This document shows, piece by piece, positions 1 to 9,691 of a DNA stretch of 64,000 nt. The position numbers and the translations under genes were made by a program. Source of the stretch: Gammaproteobacteria bacterium (lineage in GTDB: Bacteria > Pseudomonadota > Gammaproteobacteria > JAADGQ01); assembly GCA_015490755.1 (NCBI GenBank), contig WFXF01000086.1:1-64000 (forward strand), given 5' to 3'. How positions within the stretch are numbered: position 1 is the stretch's first letter; the number at the start of each line of letters is the position of its first letter. The notes below the pieces were generated by a model. The model saw only the letters and a list, made by a program, of their open reading frames with translations. It was not told where the DNA came from and made no database searches.

Positions 1-1924
1 CATCACCAGAACCACCGGCATTCATCATGCGCCCCATACCGTCCATACCACCCATTCCCATCATGGGGCTACCATTGAACTGACGGCTGACCAGCATCAC
101 TTTGTCGTTGACATCGTAATTCCCAAAATCAATAACAATTTCGGCACGTTCTGCGGCACCAAGCAGTATGTGATCTGTTTCGACCGGTTCGGGTAACAGT
201 CCGCCATCCGTACCGACCACATGGAATTTTGCGCCATCACTCAAAGCGACATCCATGGTACGAGCATTGGAGGTGTTGTAAATCCGGAAGCGATATTGGC
301 GGCTTTCAACTTCCAGTTTTGGCAGTTCAACGCCGTTGACCAAAATCACATCACCGAGATTGCCATCCTCATCTTCACTGCGTGTTTTATAGGCGAGTTC
401 ACGAACGCCCCCATTGTCTGCTTTAAAGCGACGATCTTGAATCAGCACGGGAATGTCATAGTCACCAGCAGGCAGTTGTTTGTTCTCTTCCAGTTGTTGG
501 CTGATATCATCATCAATCAAAAACAGACCGGCCAAACCTTGATAAACCTGCTCCCCCGTTTTTTCATGTGGATGTGGATGAAACCAGAGCGATGCCGCAG
601 GTTGTTCGATAGTGAAACTATAGGTACGCGACTCGTTTGCAAGAATAGGAAATTCCGGGCCACCATCCTGAATCGCTGGAATCTTGAAGCCATGCCAGTG
701 AATGGTTGTTATGTCATTCAGGTTGTTGGTCACGGGGAAGGTCATTTTATCCCCCCTGCTGGCACGAATAACGGGGGGTAGAGCTGAGCCGTTATAACGC
801 AGCATGGGTGTAGTCCAGCTACCATCTGGAGTTATGACCGGCACTTGAACATTCGCTTCAGGGTTCAAGGTATAAGTGCCCCGGTTATCATCAGGGTTTC
901 CATCCTCATCACTCATAACGGGCAGATGAATAAAGTCGGGTAAATTTGTGGCAACAAGGTTGGCTGTTGTCTCTTCAGCGGCATCACTATTTTGTTGCTG
1001 CATCTTTTCAAACGGGGCTAAATCCATGCCCATATGTTCGAGCTCAACCTTTTCATCGTCGCTGATGTCACCCGCCATAAAGCGATCCAGGGTGTTGTTA
1101 AGCAGTTTGGCACGCGCCTGGCCGTAGCCACTTTTCTGATCATGCTTTTCAAGTTCAATCTCGCTGCCATCCCGATCCATGATCTGGAGGGAGGTGCTAC
1201 CCTGACGGCCATCAAGCTCGCCATCGGATAAATCTGCAACGCGTGTATCGATCAGCTCAAAGACCTGACCGGGTTTAAGGTTCATGTTATGTGCTTCGTA
1301 AGAAAAACTGATGGCCCGGTTGCGAGCCAGTGCTTCTTGCTGGTTTGCAGGCAGTGTCGATGTGAGGTTGCCGATACGCAGAATGTCGTCACCCGAACTG
1401 ACGGGCAGAGGGGTCGTGCCATCAATTAATTTGGCTTTAATCAGTGCACTGGCTTCCTGAATCGCTATCGCCGCATCTTTCCCTTGAGCCAACTCTTTTT
1501 TAACCATCTTGGCCAATAGAGTGGTCTCGGGTGTCATCGCAATATATTGTTTATTTTTAATGATGTTATTCAATTCAGAGGCGGTGAATACGGTCATCAA
1601 ACCGGTGGTGGAATCAGGAGAAACGGTTTCACCCGTAGCTTCATCAGCGTAACTCCCCCCCAGGCTTTCAATAAAAACAGCCTTGTTTTCCAAATTCGGG
1701 ATTTCCATTTGAAACAGACCGTCATGACTACCACCGCTCGCCAACACGTTACCTGCCGCATCAGTCATGCGGATGATGGCACTATCAATAGGACCTTTAA
1801 ACACACTGCCGGATAATATTTGAGTTTGTTCTGTCGCCAGCATGTCATTGCTGCCGCCACAACCTGCTAATGTCGTGAGTGCAATACTCACACTAAGCGC
1901 TATTGCTGTTTTTTTAGTTTTCAT
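1..1924 (-). CDS. Multicopper oxidase with lipoprotein signal and ~300 aa N-terminal extension (3' end off window)
   Basis: Hand translation from ATG at 1924 stays open to the left edge: MKTKKTAIALSVSIALTTLAGCGGS (lipobox LAGC), then copper motifs HWHGFK and WFHPHPHEKTG; Met-rich GSPMMGMGGMDGMGRMMNAGG near the edge. Not in the ORF track because it runs off the window. Confidence 0.9.
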   Translation of the reverse strand, partial: MKTKKTAIALSVSIALTTLAGCGGSNDMLATEQTQILSGSVFKGPIDSAIIRMTDAAGNVLASGGSHDGLFQMEIPNLENKAVFIESLGGSYADEATGETVSPDSTTGLMTVFTASELNNIIKNKQYIAMTPETTLLAKMVKKELAQGKDAAIAIQEASALIKAKLIDGTTPLPVSSGDDILRIGNLTSTLPANQQEALARNRAISFSYEAHNMNLKPGQVFELIDTRVADLSDGELDGRQGSTSLQIMDRDGSEIELEKHDQKSGYGQARAKLLNNTLDRFMAGDISDDEKVELEHMGMDLAPFEKMQQQNSDAAEETTANLVATNLPDFIHLPVMSDEDGNPDDNRGTYTLNPEANVQVPVITPDGSWTTPMLRYNGSALPPVIRASRGDKMTFPVTNNLNDITTIHWHGFKIPAIQDGGPEFPILANESRTYSFTIEQPAASLWFHPHPHEKTGEQVYQGLAGLFLIDDDISQQLEENKQLPAGDYDIPVLIQDRRFKADNGGVRELAYKTRSEDEDGNLGDVILVNGVELPKLEVESRQYRFRIYNTSNARTMDVALSDGAKFHVVGTDGGLLPEPVETDHILLGAAERAEIVIDFGNYDVNDKVMLVSRQFNGSPMMGMGGMDGMGRMMNAGGSGD

Positions 1925-1943: not shown

Positions 1944-1957
1944 CGGGATATATCCCG
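1944..1957. promoter_or_regulatory. 14-bp perfect palindrome CGGGATATATCCCG in leader of multicopper oxidase gene
   Basis: Read directly; 20 bp upstream of the ATG. Confidence 0.4.
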
Positions 1958-1968
1958 TGGTGAACCTA

Positions 1969-1998
1969 ATATCGCGATGAAATTTCACAAGGTTGACA
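1969..1998 (-). promoter_or_regulatory. Candidate ECF-type promoter (TGTCAACC-N16-CGATAT)
   Basis: Same TGTCAACC-N16-CGAYWT layout and same A/T-rich upstream block as at 4872..4901 upstream of the ECF sigma gene. Confidence 0.5.
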
Positions 1999-2026
1999 AA
2001 GAAGTAAAAAATATTTTTTTAGACGA

Positions 2027-3037
2027 TCAATACCGAACACTGACCCCAAAATAACCACTCAACAAAAATTGGTCTTTTACTAAATTTGAGCGGTATTGCC
2101 CGGCATTAATACGGCTGTTAATGTGCCACTTTTTGCTCAGCGGATAGCTCAGACTGAGAGTGGTGGTGATATAAGTATCATTCTGTGCTTCGCCTTGAGA
2201 ACCATTGGGAGAGTCATTGGCCATAGAGTCTGAAACATTATTCATCCTCATTCCCATCATATCCATACCATTTTCATCACCATGCATGGCATCGCTTGTC
2301 TCCATATCATCGTAACGATAGTTACGCCAGGTGAACTGAATATTGCCTTCCAGTTTTTTCCAGTGCCAGGCACTGTATGCCAAACTCAAACGAGATACAT
2401 TGTAACTGTAGCGCTGCATCGGCATGGCATCAAAACGACTCATTTCTGCATCGATGTTCCAGTAAGGGGCGTTATGTGGGTGAGAAAAATAGTAACGTCC
2501 CCCCAGACTGAACCGATCAGCAGTGTAAGCCGCAGCGGGGTTATCATCATATTGCTCTTGTTGCCATGCCACGTTGAGATCCAGCCCTGAATTTTGTTGA
2601 CCAAACCAGCCCAATGTCAGGCCAACACCGCCCGCCTGATTGTTATAGGCGGGTTGATCATCGTCCTGATAATCACTGAACTGGAGATTTAAACGGGTCA
2701 ACCAATTCTGGCTGAGTGCAGACATCCATGCACCATTAAACCCAAGTGAACGAATATTGCCTGCATTGTCAAGCCCTTGATCCAGATTGGCTTGAGCGGC
2801 AATCGAGTAACCGCCCTGGTTATTCAGCTGTTGCCAACCCCAGCGCCCCCCCAACTGCCAGCCGGTTCGATCTGTGGTCACTGTCCCCGATGCATTGGCG
2901 ACCTGGTTCGATTGCAGATTTTGTTGATTAATGTAACTCAAATTGCTGTCAAGAGTGAGCAAGCTCTCTCCATAAGCGGCTGAGACTGAGAGTATGGAAA
3001 GTATGGCCAAGGCATTTGTTTTATCAACTATTTTCAA
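2027..3037 (-). CDS. Outer-membrane beta-barrel protein, putative
   Basis: Signal peptide, alternating strand pattern, C-terminal aromatic (SVRY); Met-rich loop MHGDENGMDMMGMRMNN. Confidence 0.7.
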   Translation of the reverse strand: MKIVDKTNALAILSILSVSAAYGESLLTLDSNLSYINQQNLQSNQVANASGTVTTDRTGWQLGGRWGWQQLNNQGGYSIAAQANLDQGLDNAGNIRSLGFNGAWMSALSQNWLTRLNLQFSDYQDDDQPAYNNQAGGVGLTLGWFGQQNSGLDLNVAWQQEQYDDNPAAAYTADRFSLGGRYYFSHPHNAPYWNIDAEMSRFDAMPMQRYSYNVSRLSLAYSAWHWKKLEGNIQFTWRNYRYDDMETSDAMHGDENGMDMMGMRMNNVSDSMANDSPNGSQGEAQNDTYITTTLSLSYPLSKKWHINSRINAGQYRSNLVKDQFLLSGYFGVSVRY

Positions 3038-3537
3038 TGGTGTGCCCCTTTCATAGCCGATGCATCATGGCCACTCTCCATCATGTTCTGCATACCACTC
3101 CCATGAGAATGACTCCCGCCCATGCGATCGTGAAATTGTTGGAAACGCTCCATCATATGTTGTTGCCGTTCCGGACTCATCCCCTGAAACTTTTCATGAC
3201 TCTTCATCATTTGCTGACGATCCGCTTCAGGCAGTGATTTGAAGTGATCGTAAGCTTTTTGCATGGAGTGGCGTTGATTTTCATCAAGATCTTGCCAACG
3301 CTGAAACCGTTGCCATAACGCGCTGCGCCGCTCTGAGGGCAATGATAACCATTTTTCACCCAGCTGCATCAGTTGTTGACGCTGCTGGAGAGGAAGTTTA
3401 TTCCAATCCGATTCAAATTGCCCCAGCACCTGCTGTACCTCGGGCTTGAGCGTTTGCCATTGCGCAGGGGGAGCCGCCCAGACAGTCTGTACGAATGAGA
3501 TCATCAGCAATAGCGCTGTCAATTTAATTTTCATCAT
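3034..3537 (-). CDS. DUF3106-like secreted protein with His/Met-rich C-terminus
   Basis: Likely start at MMKIKLTALLLMISFVQTVWA; WQTLKPEVQQVLGQFESDWNKLPLQQRQQLM..W; tail MMERFQQFHDRMGGSHSHGSGMQNMMESGHDASAMKGAHH. Confidence 0.75.
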   Translation of the reverse strand: MMKIKLTALLLMISFVQTVWAAPPAQWQTLKPEVQQVLGQFESDWNKLPLQQRQQLMQLGEKWLSLPSERRSALWQRFQRWQDLDENQRHSMQKAYDHFKSLPEADRQQMMKSHEKFQGMSPERQQHMMERFQQFHDRMGGSHSHGSGMQNMMESGHDASAMKGAHH

Positions 3538-3754
3538 CTTTCTCCCTGCCAGTCTGTATGGCAGATTCAGGTTTTTCATTCTGTTGTTGTGTCGTAGCCA
3601 GCAAGTTTTCAAACTCCTGATCTGACAAATTCATCAACAAAGGCAGTTGGGCTAAAAATTCCTTTGGCAGAGTCGCGGGAGGCTCCTCAGCCTGAAGTGG
3701 CAGAGCCATGAGCAATATCGCTCCTGCCATCATCACCTTTTTTCTCATAATCAT
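3524..3754 (-). CDS. Small secreted protein of the ECF operon
   Basis: 76 aa with signal peptide, overlaps both neighbours by a few bp (translational coupling). Confidence 0.6.
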   Translation of the reverse strand: MIMRKKVMMAGAILLMALPLQAEEPPATLPKEFLAQLPLLMNLSDQEFENLLATTQQQNEKPESAIQTGREKDDEN

Positions 3755-4128
3755 CCTTCTTGAACTTCCTGGATTGGCATCTGTTTCGCCAACCAGTCAT
3801 AAAACTCGGGGGATTCAAGAAGAGCCAGAGGCACTTGATCATCCATGACCCAATCAGGCAGGGCAGCCACTTGATTGGCAGAGTGGTGTGCGGAAGACGG
3901 AAGGCTGTGCTCTGTCGTTGACAACAGAGAGTAGGTAGAGACCACAACCGCGAATGTCGCCAATGCCAATACGGGTTGAGGTCGCAACCAGTTGAAGCGG
4001 TTTTGTTGTGAATTTTCTAGAGCCATCTCCGTCATTTCATCAAGTCGACGTCGATGGCGCTGGGCGAGCTGCTCAGCTTTTTGATTCAGCAGCTCTTTAG
4101 GGGTTACTCGATCTTTAGTCTTCATCAA
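3751..4128 (-). CDS. Membrane-anchored putative anti-sigma factor (DUF3619-like)
   Basis: Basic N-terminal region, single TM (PVLALATFAVVVSTYSLL), overlaps ECF sigma gene end. Confidence 0.6.
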   Translation of the reverse strand: MMKTKDRVTPKELLNQKAEQLAQRHRRRLDEMTEMALENSQQNRFNWLRPQPVLALATFAVVVSTYSLLSTTEHSLPSSAHHSANQVAALPDWVMDDQVPLALLESPEFYDWLAKQMPIQEVQEG

Positions 4129-4672
4129 TCCACTCTCCCAAATGTTCTCTTAGTGCTTGCATGGCACGCGAAAGATGAGTTTTCACACTGCCTTCTGAGC
4201 ACTTCATAATGGTGGCCGTATCACTGACACTGAATGCCTGCCACTGTCGTAACAGATACGCTTCCTGCTGGCGTGCGGGCAACAGAGACAATGCGCCTTC
4301 AAAGTGTTGAGCCAGTTGCTCGGCACGATGGCCTTGCTCAGGGCCTTCCTCATCCCCTGCTGAAAATTCAACTAACTCATTTTCCTCATCATCATTCGTT
4401 GAAAGCCTTGAAAAGGGGACGATGCGCGCAATGCGGTTGCGCCAAATCTGTTTGCGCTGCCAATCGGCAATGCGTCGCCCCAGAATTTTGTAAAGCAGAT
4501 TCTTCCATATCTCTTCATCATACTTTTGTGCGCTGGCGACAAACCCGATCATGGCTTCTTGCAACAGATCCTGAGCAACCTCTTCATCACGCACGCGCAA
4601 ACAGGCAAATGCCAGTGCACCGCCACGTACCGATTGCAAAAAGTGGCCCAGCCTGGCTTCATTACTTTGCAC
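4115..4672 (-). CDS. RNA polymerase sigma factor, ECF-type sigma-70 family
   Basis: Region 2 and region 4 signatures (DEEVAQDLLQEAMIGF; LLPARQQEAYLLRQWQAFSVSDTATIMKCSEGSVKTHLSRAMQALRE). Confidence 0.9.
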   Translation of the reverse strand: MQSNEARLGHFLQSVRGGALAFACLRVRDEEVAQDLLQEAMIGFVASAQKYDEEIWKNLLYKILGRRIADWQRKQIWRNRIARIVPFSRLSTNDDEENELVEFSAGDEEGPEQGHRAEQLAQHFEGALSLLPARQQEAYLLRQWQAFSVSDTATIMKCSEGSVKTHLSRAMQALREHLGEWIDED

Positions 4673-4871
4673 TGAGTTGAATCTTGTCCATGATTTTTTC
4701 TTGAGTCACACTGCCCTTCATTATAATGGCCTAATTAAAAATACCCCATGGCAGCAATATGATTTTTATAAAAAGCAGCTTTAAATTTCATACGTTTCAC
4801 CCATCTATTTCCAGGTTCATTATCCACTCAAGGGTGGTCACTCACAAAATTAAATCTCTGTGATAAGCTTA

Positions 4872-4901
4872 AAGTCGTAATGAAACCAGAGATGGTTGAC
4901 A
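4872..4901 (-). promoter_or_regulatory. Candidate ECF-type promoter (TGTCAACC-N16-CGACTT) upstream of the sigma gene
   Basis: Matches 1969..1998 including upstream AAATATTTTTTA block and internal TTTCAT. Confidence 0.5.
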
Positions 4902-5053
4902 TAAAGATTAAAAAATATTTACAAACAAAACCACAGTAGTGATGTGTCATTAAATATATGTTCGCCTCTCGTTTATACGTTCAAATAAAACTCATCAAGT
5001 GCCGATACATCCATCACAATAATATAAGTTCACTTTACACCGGGATGTGAAAC

Positions 5054-6143: not shown

Positions 6144-8306
6144 ATGAATACCACTACAGCAAACAACCAAAACACTCCCGCTGGAATGAGCATCAGTGAT
6201 GTATGGTATACCCTCATTGCATCAAAATGGTTAATTATAATAATCACGGCACTAGCCACATTATGTGGCGTTGCCTATGCGTTAATTGTTCAACCTGTTT
6301 ATCAAACTGACACCATTTTACAGCTTGCAGAAAGGTCAGAAGGAATCGGCTCCCTCTCTGGTTCAAACACACTCTCTTTGGGGCAATCGTCTTCTATTGC
6401 TGAAGAGATCGAAATTATTCAGTCGCGCACGACTTTAAATAAAGTAGTCAATGCACTTGACCTTGATATTTCCGCAACCCCAAAGTATTTCCCGGTTATT
6501 GGGAAAGCTGTTGCTCGTAAGGCTGATTTAGCCCTGGGATTAGCTCCGCCTCTATTTGATAAAAAGCAATATGCCTGGGGCGGTGAACGTATTGCAGTCA
6601 AAACATTAAAAGTGCCGTCAACTTATATCGGAAATTCAGCTTTCTTTACATTGATTGCAGGTAAAGATAGCACTTATAGCCTATTGGACTCTCAAAAAAA
6701 TACTTTGCTGGAAGGCCGTGTCGGAGAACTTGAAGAGATAACTCTAGCCAATGGTGAAAAATTAGAGATTAATGTTTCGGATCTATACGCTAGACCTGGT
6801 ACGCACTTTATTATTCAAAAATTGGCTCAAATGGCTGTTATTGACAGTCTAAAGTCATCTATCACAATTCATGAGCTAGGTAACACCAAAGGCAGCGGGG
6901 TAAAACGTTCAGGTTTGCTACAAATAAGCATGACAGGCAGTAATCCTGAAACGATTGCTGACGTTGTCAACATGATTGCAGAAACCTACATTCAACAAGG
7001 AGCTGAACAAAAATCAAAGATCGCCAAAAAAACACTGGAGTTACTTGAGAGCCAATTAGGAAAATCGACTGGAAAACGTATTGGTAACAGAAAAGTCAAT
7101 AATAGTGCAAACTCATCCAAAGAGACTCAAGTGACTCTTAATAGAATTATCTCTATTGAATCCAAACTCTCTGAACTCCTCCAGCAAAAGGAAGAGCTGA
7201 GCCAAAAATTTACTGAGGAGCACTATCGGATGATCTCTTCGAACAAACAGATAGAACGTTTGCAAGAAGAGAGAAACATGCTGAAAAGAAAAATCAGAAA
7301 TGCACCCAATAAAGTGCAAGATCAACTATTCGACAAGATGGAAGAGCTTAAAGTTATTATTGCCAGCTCCATGAGCGACACTCGTATTCTTGATTATGCA
7401 ATCACACCTTATAAACCCATAAAGCCTAAAAAAACTTTTTCAGTCTTGCTGGCATTTGCATTGGGACTTATTTTCAGTTTTGGCATTGTACTTGTTAGAA
7501 AAAGCTTTACGCCAGGAATACAAGACCCCAATATCATTGAGGAAGCTACTCAACTGCCTGTTTTAGCTAATATTTTACACAGTAAACGTCAGCGTGCACT
7601 GCTTGATGCCGCACAGCGTGGTGCTGGCAAGCGAGCAGTGATTGCTGCATTAAATCATGATGACCCTTCCATTGAAGGGCTCCGGCATCTTCGTGCGGCA
7701 CTGACTTCACAACTCGCCAACTGTAAAAATAACCGGATTATGATAGCAGGCCCAATACCGGGTATTGGAAAATCATTTGTATCACTAAATTTCAGTGCTG
7801 TTCTGGCACGCTCAGGGCGACGTGTTTTACTCATTGATGGCGATATGCATAAGGGGAAGCTGAGTAAAATATTTAATTTTAAAAATGCCCAGGGGCTTGC
7901 AGAAGTCCTTCATCAGGAAGCTGATATCAGACTGATCATTCGCAAAACAGGTATCGAAAATCTTAATATTATTACTGCAGGCAAACCGCTTAAAAATGCC
8001 ACCGAGCTGCTCATGCAAGATAAACTTGATTCAGCACTCTATGACGTTGCCCAGTTTTATGACCATGTCATCATCGATTCCCCACCCGTTCTGGCGGTGA
8101 GTGATGCCACCATGATTGGCCGTTCAACAGGTATGACTCTGATCGTTCTTAAATCCGGCATACACTCTTTACGTGAAATTGACACAACAATCAAACGACT
8201 CAAGCAGGCAGGAGTCTACCCTGACGGTATTGTTTTAAATGATATTAAAGCAACAAACCCCGGCTATGACCAATACTACGGCTACTCCTATGCCGACAAT
8301 TCGTAA
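6144..8306 (+). CDS. wzc: Polysaccharide co-polymerase / tyrosine autokinase (Wzc family)
   Basis: Two TMs, P-loop AGPIPGIGKSFVSLNFS, VLLIDGDMHKG, C-terminal Tyr cluster GYDQYYGYSYADNS. Confidence 0.92.
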   Translation: MNTTTANNQNTPAGMSISDVWYTLIASKWLIIIITALATLCGVAYALIVQPVYQTDTILQLAERSEGIGSLSGSNTLSLGQSSSIAEEIEIIQSRTTLNKVVNALDLDISATPKYFPVIGKAVARKADLALGLAPPLFDKKQYAWGGERIAVKTLKVPSTYIGNSAFFTLIAGKDSTYSLLDSQKNTLLEGRVGELEEITLANGEKLEINVSDLYARPGTHFIIQKLAQMAVIDSLKSSITIHELGNTKGSGVKRSGLLQISMTGSNPETIADVVNMIAETYIQQGAEQKSKIAKKTLELLESQLGKSTGKRIGNRKVNNSANSSKETQVTLNRIISIESKLSELLQQKEELSQKFTEEHYRMISSNKQIERLQEERNMLKRKIRNAPNKVQDQLFDKMEELKVIIASSMSDTRILDYAITPYKPIKPKKTFSVLLAFALGLIFSFGIVLVRKSFTPGIQDPNIIEEATQLPVLANILHSKRQRALLDAAQRGAGKRAVIAALNHDDPSIEGLRHLRAALTSQLANCKNNRIMIAGPIPGIGKSFVSLNFSAVLARSGRRVLLIDGDMHKGKLSKIFNFKNAQGLAEVLHQEADIRLIIRKTGIENLNIITAGKPLKNATELLMQDKLDSALYDVAQFYDHVIIDSPPVLAVSDATMIGRSTGMTLIVLKSGIHSLREIDTTIKRLKQAGVYPDGIVLNDIKATNPGYDQYYGYSYADNS

Positions 8307-8314
8307 TTCACAAC

Positions 8315-9691
8315 GTGATTTACCAAAAAATCAAACTATTTATAGCTAAAATAGGCCAGCATAACCGTACTATATTTTCAGCTGCCGCCCTCATTGCTAT
8401 TATTACTTTTGCAGTCAAGTTTGTTGCTATGCTTAAAGAGCTGGTGGTTGCCAGCCATTTTGGTACCAGTGAGGTTCTTGACGTTTTTTTAATTGCTTAT
8501 CTGATCCCTTCATTTGCCATCAGCATTTTTGCAGGAAATTTTTCAGCAGCAGTTATCCCCCCCTTTATTGAAATACGTAAACAAAATGGAGCAGAGGCCG
8601 CAAAAAGATATCTGGCCACCACTATGGTAATCACCCTCGGGCTTCTCTCGATGATCGCAGCCATACTTGCATTATCCGGCCCTTTAGCGCTTAACCTGCT
8701 TTCCAGCAACCTGTCAGCAGAAGCTCAGTCACTCTCATTATCACTCTATTTTATTTTGCTGCCCATCATCATGCTGGCAGGTATTATTGATATTTTTTCC
8801 GCTCTGTTAAAAGCTGAAAAAAAGTTTATTCTAGCGGCTTTCGCCCCTATGCTGGTACCACTTACTGTACTTTTTTCACTTTTAATTTTCAGCTCAAATA
8901 TTGGCATATATGCTTACGCCTATGGTGAATTTTTTGGTTCTCTGGCCGGAATAATTCTACTTGCTATTGGCCTTAAAAAATACAATTTATTCGTCTACCC
9001 AAAGTGGTATGGAATAAATAACAATGTGCGACAAACCATGAGCCAATACATACCACTAATCAGTAGCTCAATGATTATTTGCAGCGCCCCGGTCATTGAT
9101 ATTGTAATGGCTTCCACTCTGGAGCCGGGAAGCGTTTCATCTTTAACCTATGGTAATAAAATTACTACTGTTATTTTATCAATCAGCTCAATTGCACTGG
9201 TTTCATCATTACTCCCCTACTTCTCTTCAATGGTTGCAAACAAGGAGTGGAAATCAGTCCAGCATACGATTAATTTTTTCATGAAAACTGTATTTATAAC
9301 AACAATACCTATGATGATCGTTTTCATGCTGTTTTCAGAACAGATCACCCGTTTATTGTTTGAACGTGGTGAATTCACTGGACAAGACACACTTGTCGTC
9401 AGTCAGATTTTTTTCTTTTACTTGCTACAAATGCCTTTTTTCATTGCGGATATGATATGGATCAGCTTGATTTATGCGCTAAAAGTGAACCAGATTCTTC
9501 TGCTTGGCAACATCATTACGATCATACTCAATATCGCCGGGAACTATTTTTTTATGCAGATATGGGGCATTGCCGGTATTGCCTTGTCAACAGCTCTCGT
9601 TTTATTTATCTCTTTTATTTATTTGACCATCACTGCAAGACGAGCCTTGGCCAGGGCAATACAAGCCTCTCCAGAGCAAGGAGTTCAATAG
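8315..9691 (+). CDS. MurJ/MviN-like lipid-linked oligosaccharide flippase
   Basis: Multi-TM; KFVAMLKELVVASHFGTSEVLDVFLIAYLIPSF; FERGEFT motif. Confidence 0.85.
   Translation: MIYQKIKLFIAKIGQHNRTIFSAAALIAIITFAVKFVAMLKELVVASHFGTSEVLDVFLIAYLIPSFAISIFAGNFSAAVIPPFIEIRKQNGAEAAKRYLATTMVITLGLLSMIAAILALSGPLALNLLSSNLSAEAQSLSLSLYFILLPIIMLAGIIDIFSALLKAEKKFILAAFAPMLVPLTVLFSLLIFSSNIGIYAYAYGEFFGSLAGIILLAIGLKKYNLFVYPKWYGINNNVRQTMSQYIPLISSSMIICSAPVIDIVMASTLEPGSVSSLTYGNKITTVILSISSIALVSSLLPYFSSMVANKEWKSVQHTINFFMKTVFITTIPMMIVFMLFSEQITRLLFERGEFTGQDTLVVSQIFFFYLLQMPFFIADMIWISLIYALKVNQILLLGNIITIILNIAGNYFFMQIWGIAGIALSTALVLFISFIYLTITARRALARAIQASPEQGVQ

Follow-up and report, generated by a model that had tools for sequence, protein, structure and literature searches.

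Two conserved sites probably read as promoters by an ECF sigma factor of a putatively copper-responsive operon in a gammaproteobacterium

Near one end of the window, the 64-kb stretch of gammaproteobacterial DNA analysed here, a gene for an extracytoplasmic function (ECF) sigma factor and a gene for a multicopper oxidase (MCO) are each preceded by one of two near-matching sequences. The locus raises the question of whether these sequences are promoters read by this very sigma factor, which would then activate both its own operon and, from a separate promoter, the oxidase. The order on the minus strand is the first site (4872-4901), the sigma factor gene (sigma1), genes for a membrane protein, a 76-residue protein, a DUF3106 protein and an outer-membrane protein, the second site (1969-1998) and the MCO gene.

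Sigma1 (4115..4672, minus strand, GTG start, 185 residues) has the size and content of an ECF (group 4) sigma factor, with sigma70 regions 2 and 4 only. PF04542 and PF08281 match above cut-off, TIGR02937 reaches 74.8 bits against a cut-off of 42.9, and the best NCBIfam model, NF006550 (PRK09047, RNA polymerase sigma factor), scores 165.5 bits, under its curated cut-off of 173. A short upstream ORF (MKGSVTQEKIMDKIQLSAK, approximately 4665-4721, minus) has a stop codon overlapping the sigma1 GTG, possibly for translational coupling. The sigma1 gene overlaps a gene for a membrane protein of about 124 residues with one hydrophobic segment (3751..4125, minus), which has no match in Pfam or NCBIfam and is a putative anti-sigma factor by its position, its size and the comparison with SigAb described below. 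It is followed by a small secreted protein of 76 residues (3524..3754, minus), with a gene of similar size in the operon of a sister sigma factor, and by a periplasmic DUF3106 protein with a Met/His-rich C-terminal tail (3034..3537, minus; PF11304 at 3151-3459, 74.3 bits versus 24.3), a candidate metal sensor. Exactly two DUF3106 genes are present in the window's genome, one in the sigma1 operon and one in the sister sigma operon. The product of the next gene (2027..3037, minus) is predicted to reside in the outer membrane and contains a stretch rich in Met and His; neither this protein nor its ortholog matches a Pfam or NCBIfam family above cut-off. The lipoprotein MCO (1..1924, minus), CueO-like with Pfam and NCBIfam matches, is truncated by the contig start and has a full-length ortholog in L035. 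At the locus of another genome (G058, L074), the genes for the outer-membrane protein and the MCO are separated by one (6554-8428) that encodes a 625-residue protein with CXXCH motifs of the haem-binding type.

Both predicted sites are present with the letters originally given. The site of the sigma operon (4872..4901, minus; TGTCAACCATCTCTGGTTTCATTACGACTT) reads TGTCAACC-N16-CGACTT and lies 229 bp before the sigma GTG, while that of the MCO (1969..1998, minus; TGTCAACCTTGTGAAATTTCATCGCGATAT) reads TGTCAACC-N16-CGATAT and lies 74 bp before the ATG. Genome scans were performed as pattern searches, and the scan for TGTCAACC-N16-CGAYWT that had been proposed along with the sites returned, at zero mismatches, exactly these two, before the sigma and MCO genes, in the 64-kb window as well as in the 2.63-Mb genome; a reversed-pattern control gave 0 matches. 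At three mismatches, 22 matches in the window compare with 16.5 expected, so that only the exact matches are informative. Because the motif was derived from the same two sites, the uniqueness counts alone are circular and prove little, and conservation constitutes the independent test. Upstream of each site lies an UP-like A/T block, AAATATTTTTTA (4909..4920 and 2005..2016, both minus), a 12-mer found within the window only at these places (4920->4909 and 2016->2005). The block is shared by the two window sites as first noted, but its sequence is not conserved in orthologs, and it is local to this genome. A common origin of the two promoters from duplicated DNA was considered and is unsupported, the identity beyond the boxes being mainly the A/T block and TTTCAT.

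Orthologs were collected from six loci of other gammaproteobacterial genomes and, in addition, by scanning 369 genomes of the class. They show 53-71% identity, and the same operon is retained in most. Repeat fetches of the same genomes (L033/L048/L070, L034/L004/L077 and L049/L071) were counted once each, and the window was counted in the sigma and MCO sets. In the 250-bp upstream regions, the pattern [TC]GTCAACC-N15..17-CGA is found at 10 of 10 orthologous sigma genes (loci with upstream sequence), at 8 of 8 orthologous MCO genes and at both second, Tat-type MCO genes (G194 and G058), while dinucleotide shuffles give a chance expectation of about 0.003 regions per set. A lack of motif conservation at orthologous sigma and MCO genes, named beforehand as evidence against the promoters, was not encountered. 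The general form of the motif is [TC]GTCAACC-N15..17-CGA(T/A/C), mostly with N16. Five genomes, the window's included, have it exactly 74 bp before the ATG of the MCO. The sigma promoter of the window is less typical, located 229 bp from the start codon versus 65-128 bp in the measured orthologs, and its -10 element, CGACTT, is the largest departure from the CGAT common to most of the set. Two orthologous sigma genes have no site upstream: that of L037, where 60 bp remain before the contig end, and that of G365, whose location behind copAB may allow transcription from a cop promoter. Further direct targets were sought in eight genomes with TGTCAACC-N15..17-CGAT; the additional matches were coding or non-syntenic and were rejected.

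Between the MCO promoter and the ribosome-binding site, the 5'-UTR contains a hairpin (CGGGATATATCCCG, 1944..1957, minus). Its 5-bp stem is kept in five genomes, with both-sided changes at two pairs (pairs counted by eye) and one pair lost in L035. Folding indicates a clear occlusion of the SD sequence in two genomes (G002 and L037), not in all five, and the hairpin could serve mRNA stability or translation control.

The layout of the sites corresponds to that of an experimentally defined promoter. SigAb of A. baumannii uses a -35 element GTCAAC, a 17-bp spacer (16 tolerated) and a -10 element CGTT, as determined by 5' RACE and systematic mutagenesis, and autoregulation, anti-sigma activity and copper induction have been demonstrated experimentally for this system (PMC12153292). 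In the A. baumannii record CP040041 (L120), the sigma factor is 36.5% identical to sigma1, the genes aabA and aabB show the published overlap, aabB both carries a DUF3106 annotation and scores as such (PF11304, 38.1 bits), and the sigAb promoter reads TGTCAACC-N16-CGTTAT. SigAb-AabA-AabB and the window share overlapping genes in the order sigma factor, small membrane anti-sigma factor (a candidate in the window, in the position of AabA) and periplasmic DUF3106 protein (in the position of AabB). They also share the -35 TGTCAACC, a 17-bp spacer counted from GTCAAC and, putatively for the window, autoregulation and the link to copper. In contrast to the window, SigAb has CGTT instead of CGA as -10 element and no MCO among its direct targets, AabB is devoid of a Met/His tail, and the 76-residue protein, the outer-membrane protein and the MCO go beyond the SigAb operon. 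Thus, the window carries the DUF3106 gene and the -35 GTCAAC(C) with a 16-17 bp spacer that are typical of SigAb-type systems, but not the -10 CGTT; since CGA is present in 10 of 10 sigma1-type loci versus CGT in the other 72 family loci with a site, sigma1 is classed in a sister clade and not as a SigAb ortholog.

These data also bear on whether the sites could be operators for a DNA-binding regulator, e.g., a copper-responsive MerR-type protein or a response regulator, or plain sigma70 promoters. TTGTCA is similar to a sigma70 -35 element, and an MCO gene adjoins MerR-type genes in another genome (L155), but no sigma70 -10 element is seen by eye at the proper distance, and the two-block layout with its near-fixed spacing is the same as that of the mutagenised ECF promoter in SigAb (PMC12153292). 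Moreover, a genome with an MCO beside MerR genes and no sigma1 (G130) shows no motif in an 11-kb stretch, and the operator or sigma70 explanation is most improbable. The motif at 10 of 10 sigma and 8 of 8 MCO orthologs and its match to the mutagenised SigAb layout (PMC12153292) rather argue for ECF promoters, as had been proposed. The conservation at the sigma genes and the SigAb precedent also support the predicted autoregulation, and the conservation at the MCO genes supports co-regulation of the oxidase from a separate promoter. This promoter is internal to a co-directional cluster, and read-through from the sigma promoter is possible.

Two other metal-related ECF systems show partial similarity. 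CorE of Myxococcus xanthus is a copper-dependent ECF sigma factor that activates an MCO gene, cuoB, as sigma1 would do; copper is sensed through a Cys-rich domain at the C-terminus of CorE itself, for which no anti-sigma factor was found (PMC3107203). Sigma1, in contrast, ends with ...LGEWIDED, has neither a C-terminal extension nor a Cys cluster and is accompanied by an overlapping anti-sigma candidate; assignment to the CorE type was rejected, the Cys-rich domain being absent from the translation. CnrYXH of Cupriavidus metallidurans resembles the arrangement predicted for the window in placing a small anti-sigma factor and a periplasmic helical sensor on a metal-resistance ECF sigma factor. 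It responds to Ni/Co, has another gene order, and its sensor family is unrelated to DUF3106. AabA has been modelled as CnrY-like (PMC12153292).

Sigma1 is not the only member of its family in the window's genome. Of the 369 gammaproteobacterial genomes scanned, 85 contain family matches, many of which are accompanied by a DUF3106 gene and by the same motif; both sigma types are found together in five genomes (G000, which is the window's genome, G002, G011, G312 and G365). The CGA sites could hence be ECF promoters used by the sister sigma factor (G000:C85:22060-22575; operon L041, G000:C85:19000-24666) or by both factors, such that sigma1 would have no private regulon; the -35 TGTCAACC is common to both sigma types, and SigAb tolerates spacers of 16-17 bp (PMC12153292). 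However, -10 element and spacer follow the clade. In a tree of 90 non-redundant family members, the sigma1 clade has a support of 100/99, and a survey allowing either -10 and spacers of 14-17 located a site in 10 of its 12 members, all with CGA (nine N16, one N15), versus 72 of the 78 members outside the clade, all with CGT and mostly N15. Beyond the clade, CGA was matched only in L076, by GGTCAACG at the large distance of 1.4 kb upstream. The association of CGA with mostly N16 and of CGT with mostly N15 is seen even within G000, G002, G011 and G312, and together with the loss of the site in a genome without sigma1 (G001, see below) it makes use of the CGA sites by the sister sigma factor unlikely. 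In the window's genome, TGTCAACC-N15-CGTT is present only at the sister sigma gene and at a DUF4382 lipoprotein gene (L046, G000:C26). The shared -35 and the differing -10 and spacer suggest that sigma1 and its sister are insulated from each other and probably use separate promoters.

The origin of this arrangement can be described with less confidence. A reading that is favoured by a small margin of belief is that an ECF sigma factor was duplicated and one copy acquired a private copper regulon through a change of the third -10 base (CGT to CGA), usually with one additional bp of spacer, in all its promoters, while the ancestral -35 was kept and insulation from the sister was achieved. The estimate of about two promoters per sigma factor in the window's genome belongs to this reading and is likewise only somewhat probable. 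In G011, both clade-type promoters are N15-CGAAT, indicating a joint change of the pair in this genome. The clades differ at several sigma columns, e.g., 48, 58, 65, 74 and 77, but to attribute the -10 change to a particular one would be guesswork. In distant family members (L006, L008 and L009), a CGTT site precedes a gene that lies directly before the sigma gene and encodes a charged periplasmic protein rich in repeats; this gene is a likely ancestral target.

A natural loss is found in a genome of the same genus. In G001 (locus L154, C11), sigma1 is missing (best sigma match 1.6e-4) and the sigma operon is gone in its entirety from the MCO locus, while the MCO is kept with 78% identity inside a 110-kb contig. 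Upstream of this MCO, TGTCAACC is retained 78 bp before the ATG, and the -10 is CTAT where the window has CGAT; a search for TGTCAACC-N15..17-CGAT gave no match anywhere in the G001 genome. This decay is suggestive of a use of the site by sigma1, as one case and not as proof.

We infer copper as the signal from the MCO targets, a copAB-linked ortholog, the Met/His-rich tails and SigAb. The targets of the sigma1 clade are recurrently MCOs, with a second MCO in two genomes, and copA (TIGR01480, 5.5e-109) and copB (PF05275, 3.2e-91) precede the sigma gene in G365. The last 50 residues of the DUF3106 proteins contain 25% Met+His in the clade (n=9) versus 5% in 81 others, a statistic that reflects few independent events because the clade members are related; the tail is a candidate copper-sensing element. 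Genuine promoters could also respond to another metal or to general envelope or oxidative stress instead of copper: the sigma family linked to DUF3106 is a broad one, other members precede genes for repeat-rich periplasmic proteins or DUF4382 lipoproteins, and the G011 locus adjoins a divalent-metal exporter. The repeated MCO targets, the copAB-linked copy and the Met/His-rich, sensor-like tails oppose this explanation, as does the response of SigAb to copper and not to other metals tested (PMC12153292), and a signal other than copper is a sizeable but minor possibility.

The exact, genome-unique sites, their conservation in orthologs, the sigAb-like operon, the clade-tied -10 and the loss in G001 lead to the conclusion that both sites are very probably promoters read by sigma1 in a copper-responsive feedback system, for which we infer transcription, anti-sigma function and the copper signal. 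The 229-bp distance, the CGACTT -10 element, the anti-sigma candidate without family match, the only indirect control of copper genes by SigAb and the siteless L037 and G365 speak against it. In unstressed cells, the small membrane protein encoded by the overlapping gene would probably tether sigma1 to the inner membrane with help from the periplasmic DUF3106 protein. A surplus of copper in the periplasm, which the Met/His-rich tail of the DUF3106 protein would probably sense, would set sigma1 free, and sigma1-RNA polymerase would then transcribe the sigma operon from 4872-4901 in a positive feedback. The internal promoter at 1969-1998 would provide extra CueO-like oxidase for the detoxification of Cu(I).

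A comparison with RpoE-like sigma factors has led to the description of SigAb as Acinetobacter-specific; it directly controls sigAb, relA and an sRNA, and copper genes only indirectly (PMC12153292). Judged by sequence, SigAb seems to be a divergent representative of a broad DUF3106-linked family rather than an Acinetobacter-specific factor. Beyond the original prediction, the comparisons thus point to a wide SigAb-type family and a clade-specific switch of -10 and spacer, and a literature search returned no paper on DUF3106 with a sigma factor or on TGTCAAC with extracytoplasmic function. The supposedly Acinetobacter-specific copper sigma factor would hereby gain a wide gammaproteobacterial family with a recognisable promoter code and operon. 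The family offers a clean natural case of sister sigma factors that diverge in promoter choice at a common -35, by a single -10 base and a spacer difference of 1 bp; the two versions coexist in one cell, and the system has decayed in a congener. The recognisable promoter code and operon would make the prediction of direct targets feasible in a family that has hardly been studied experimentally.
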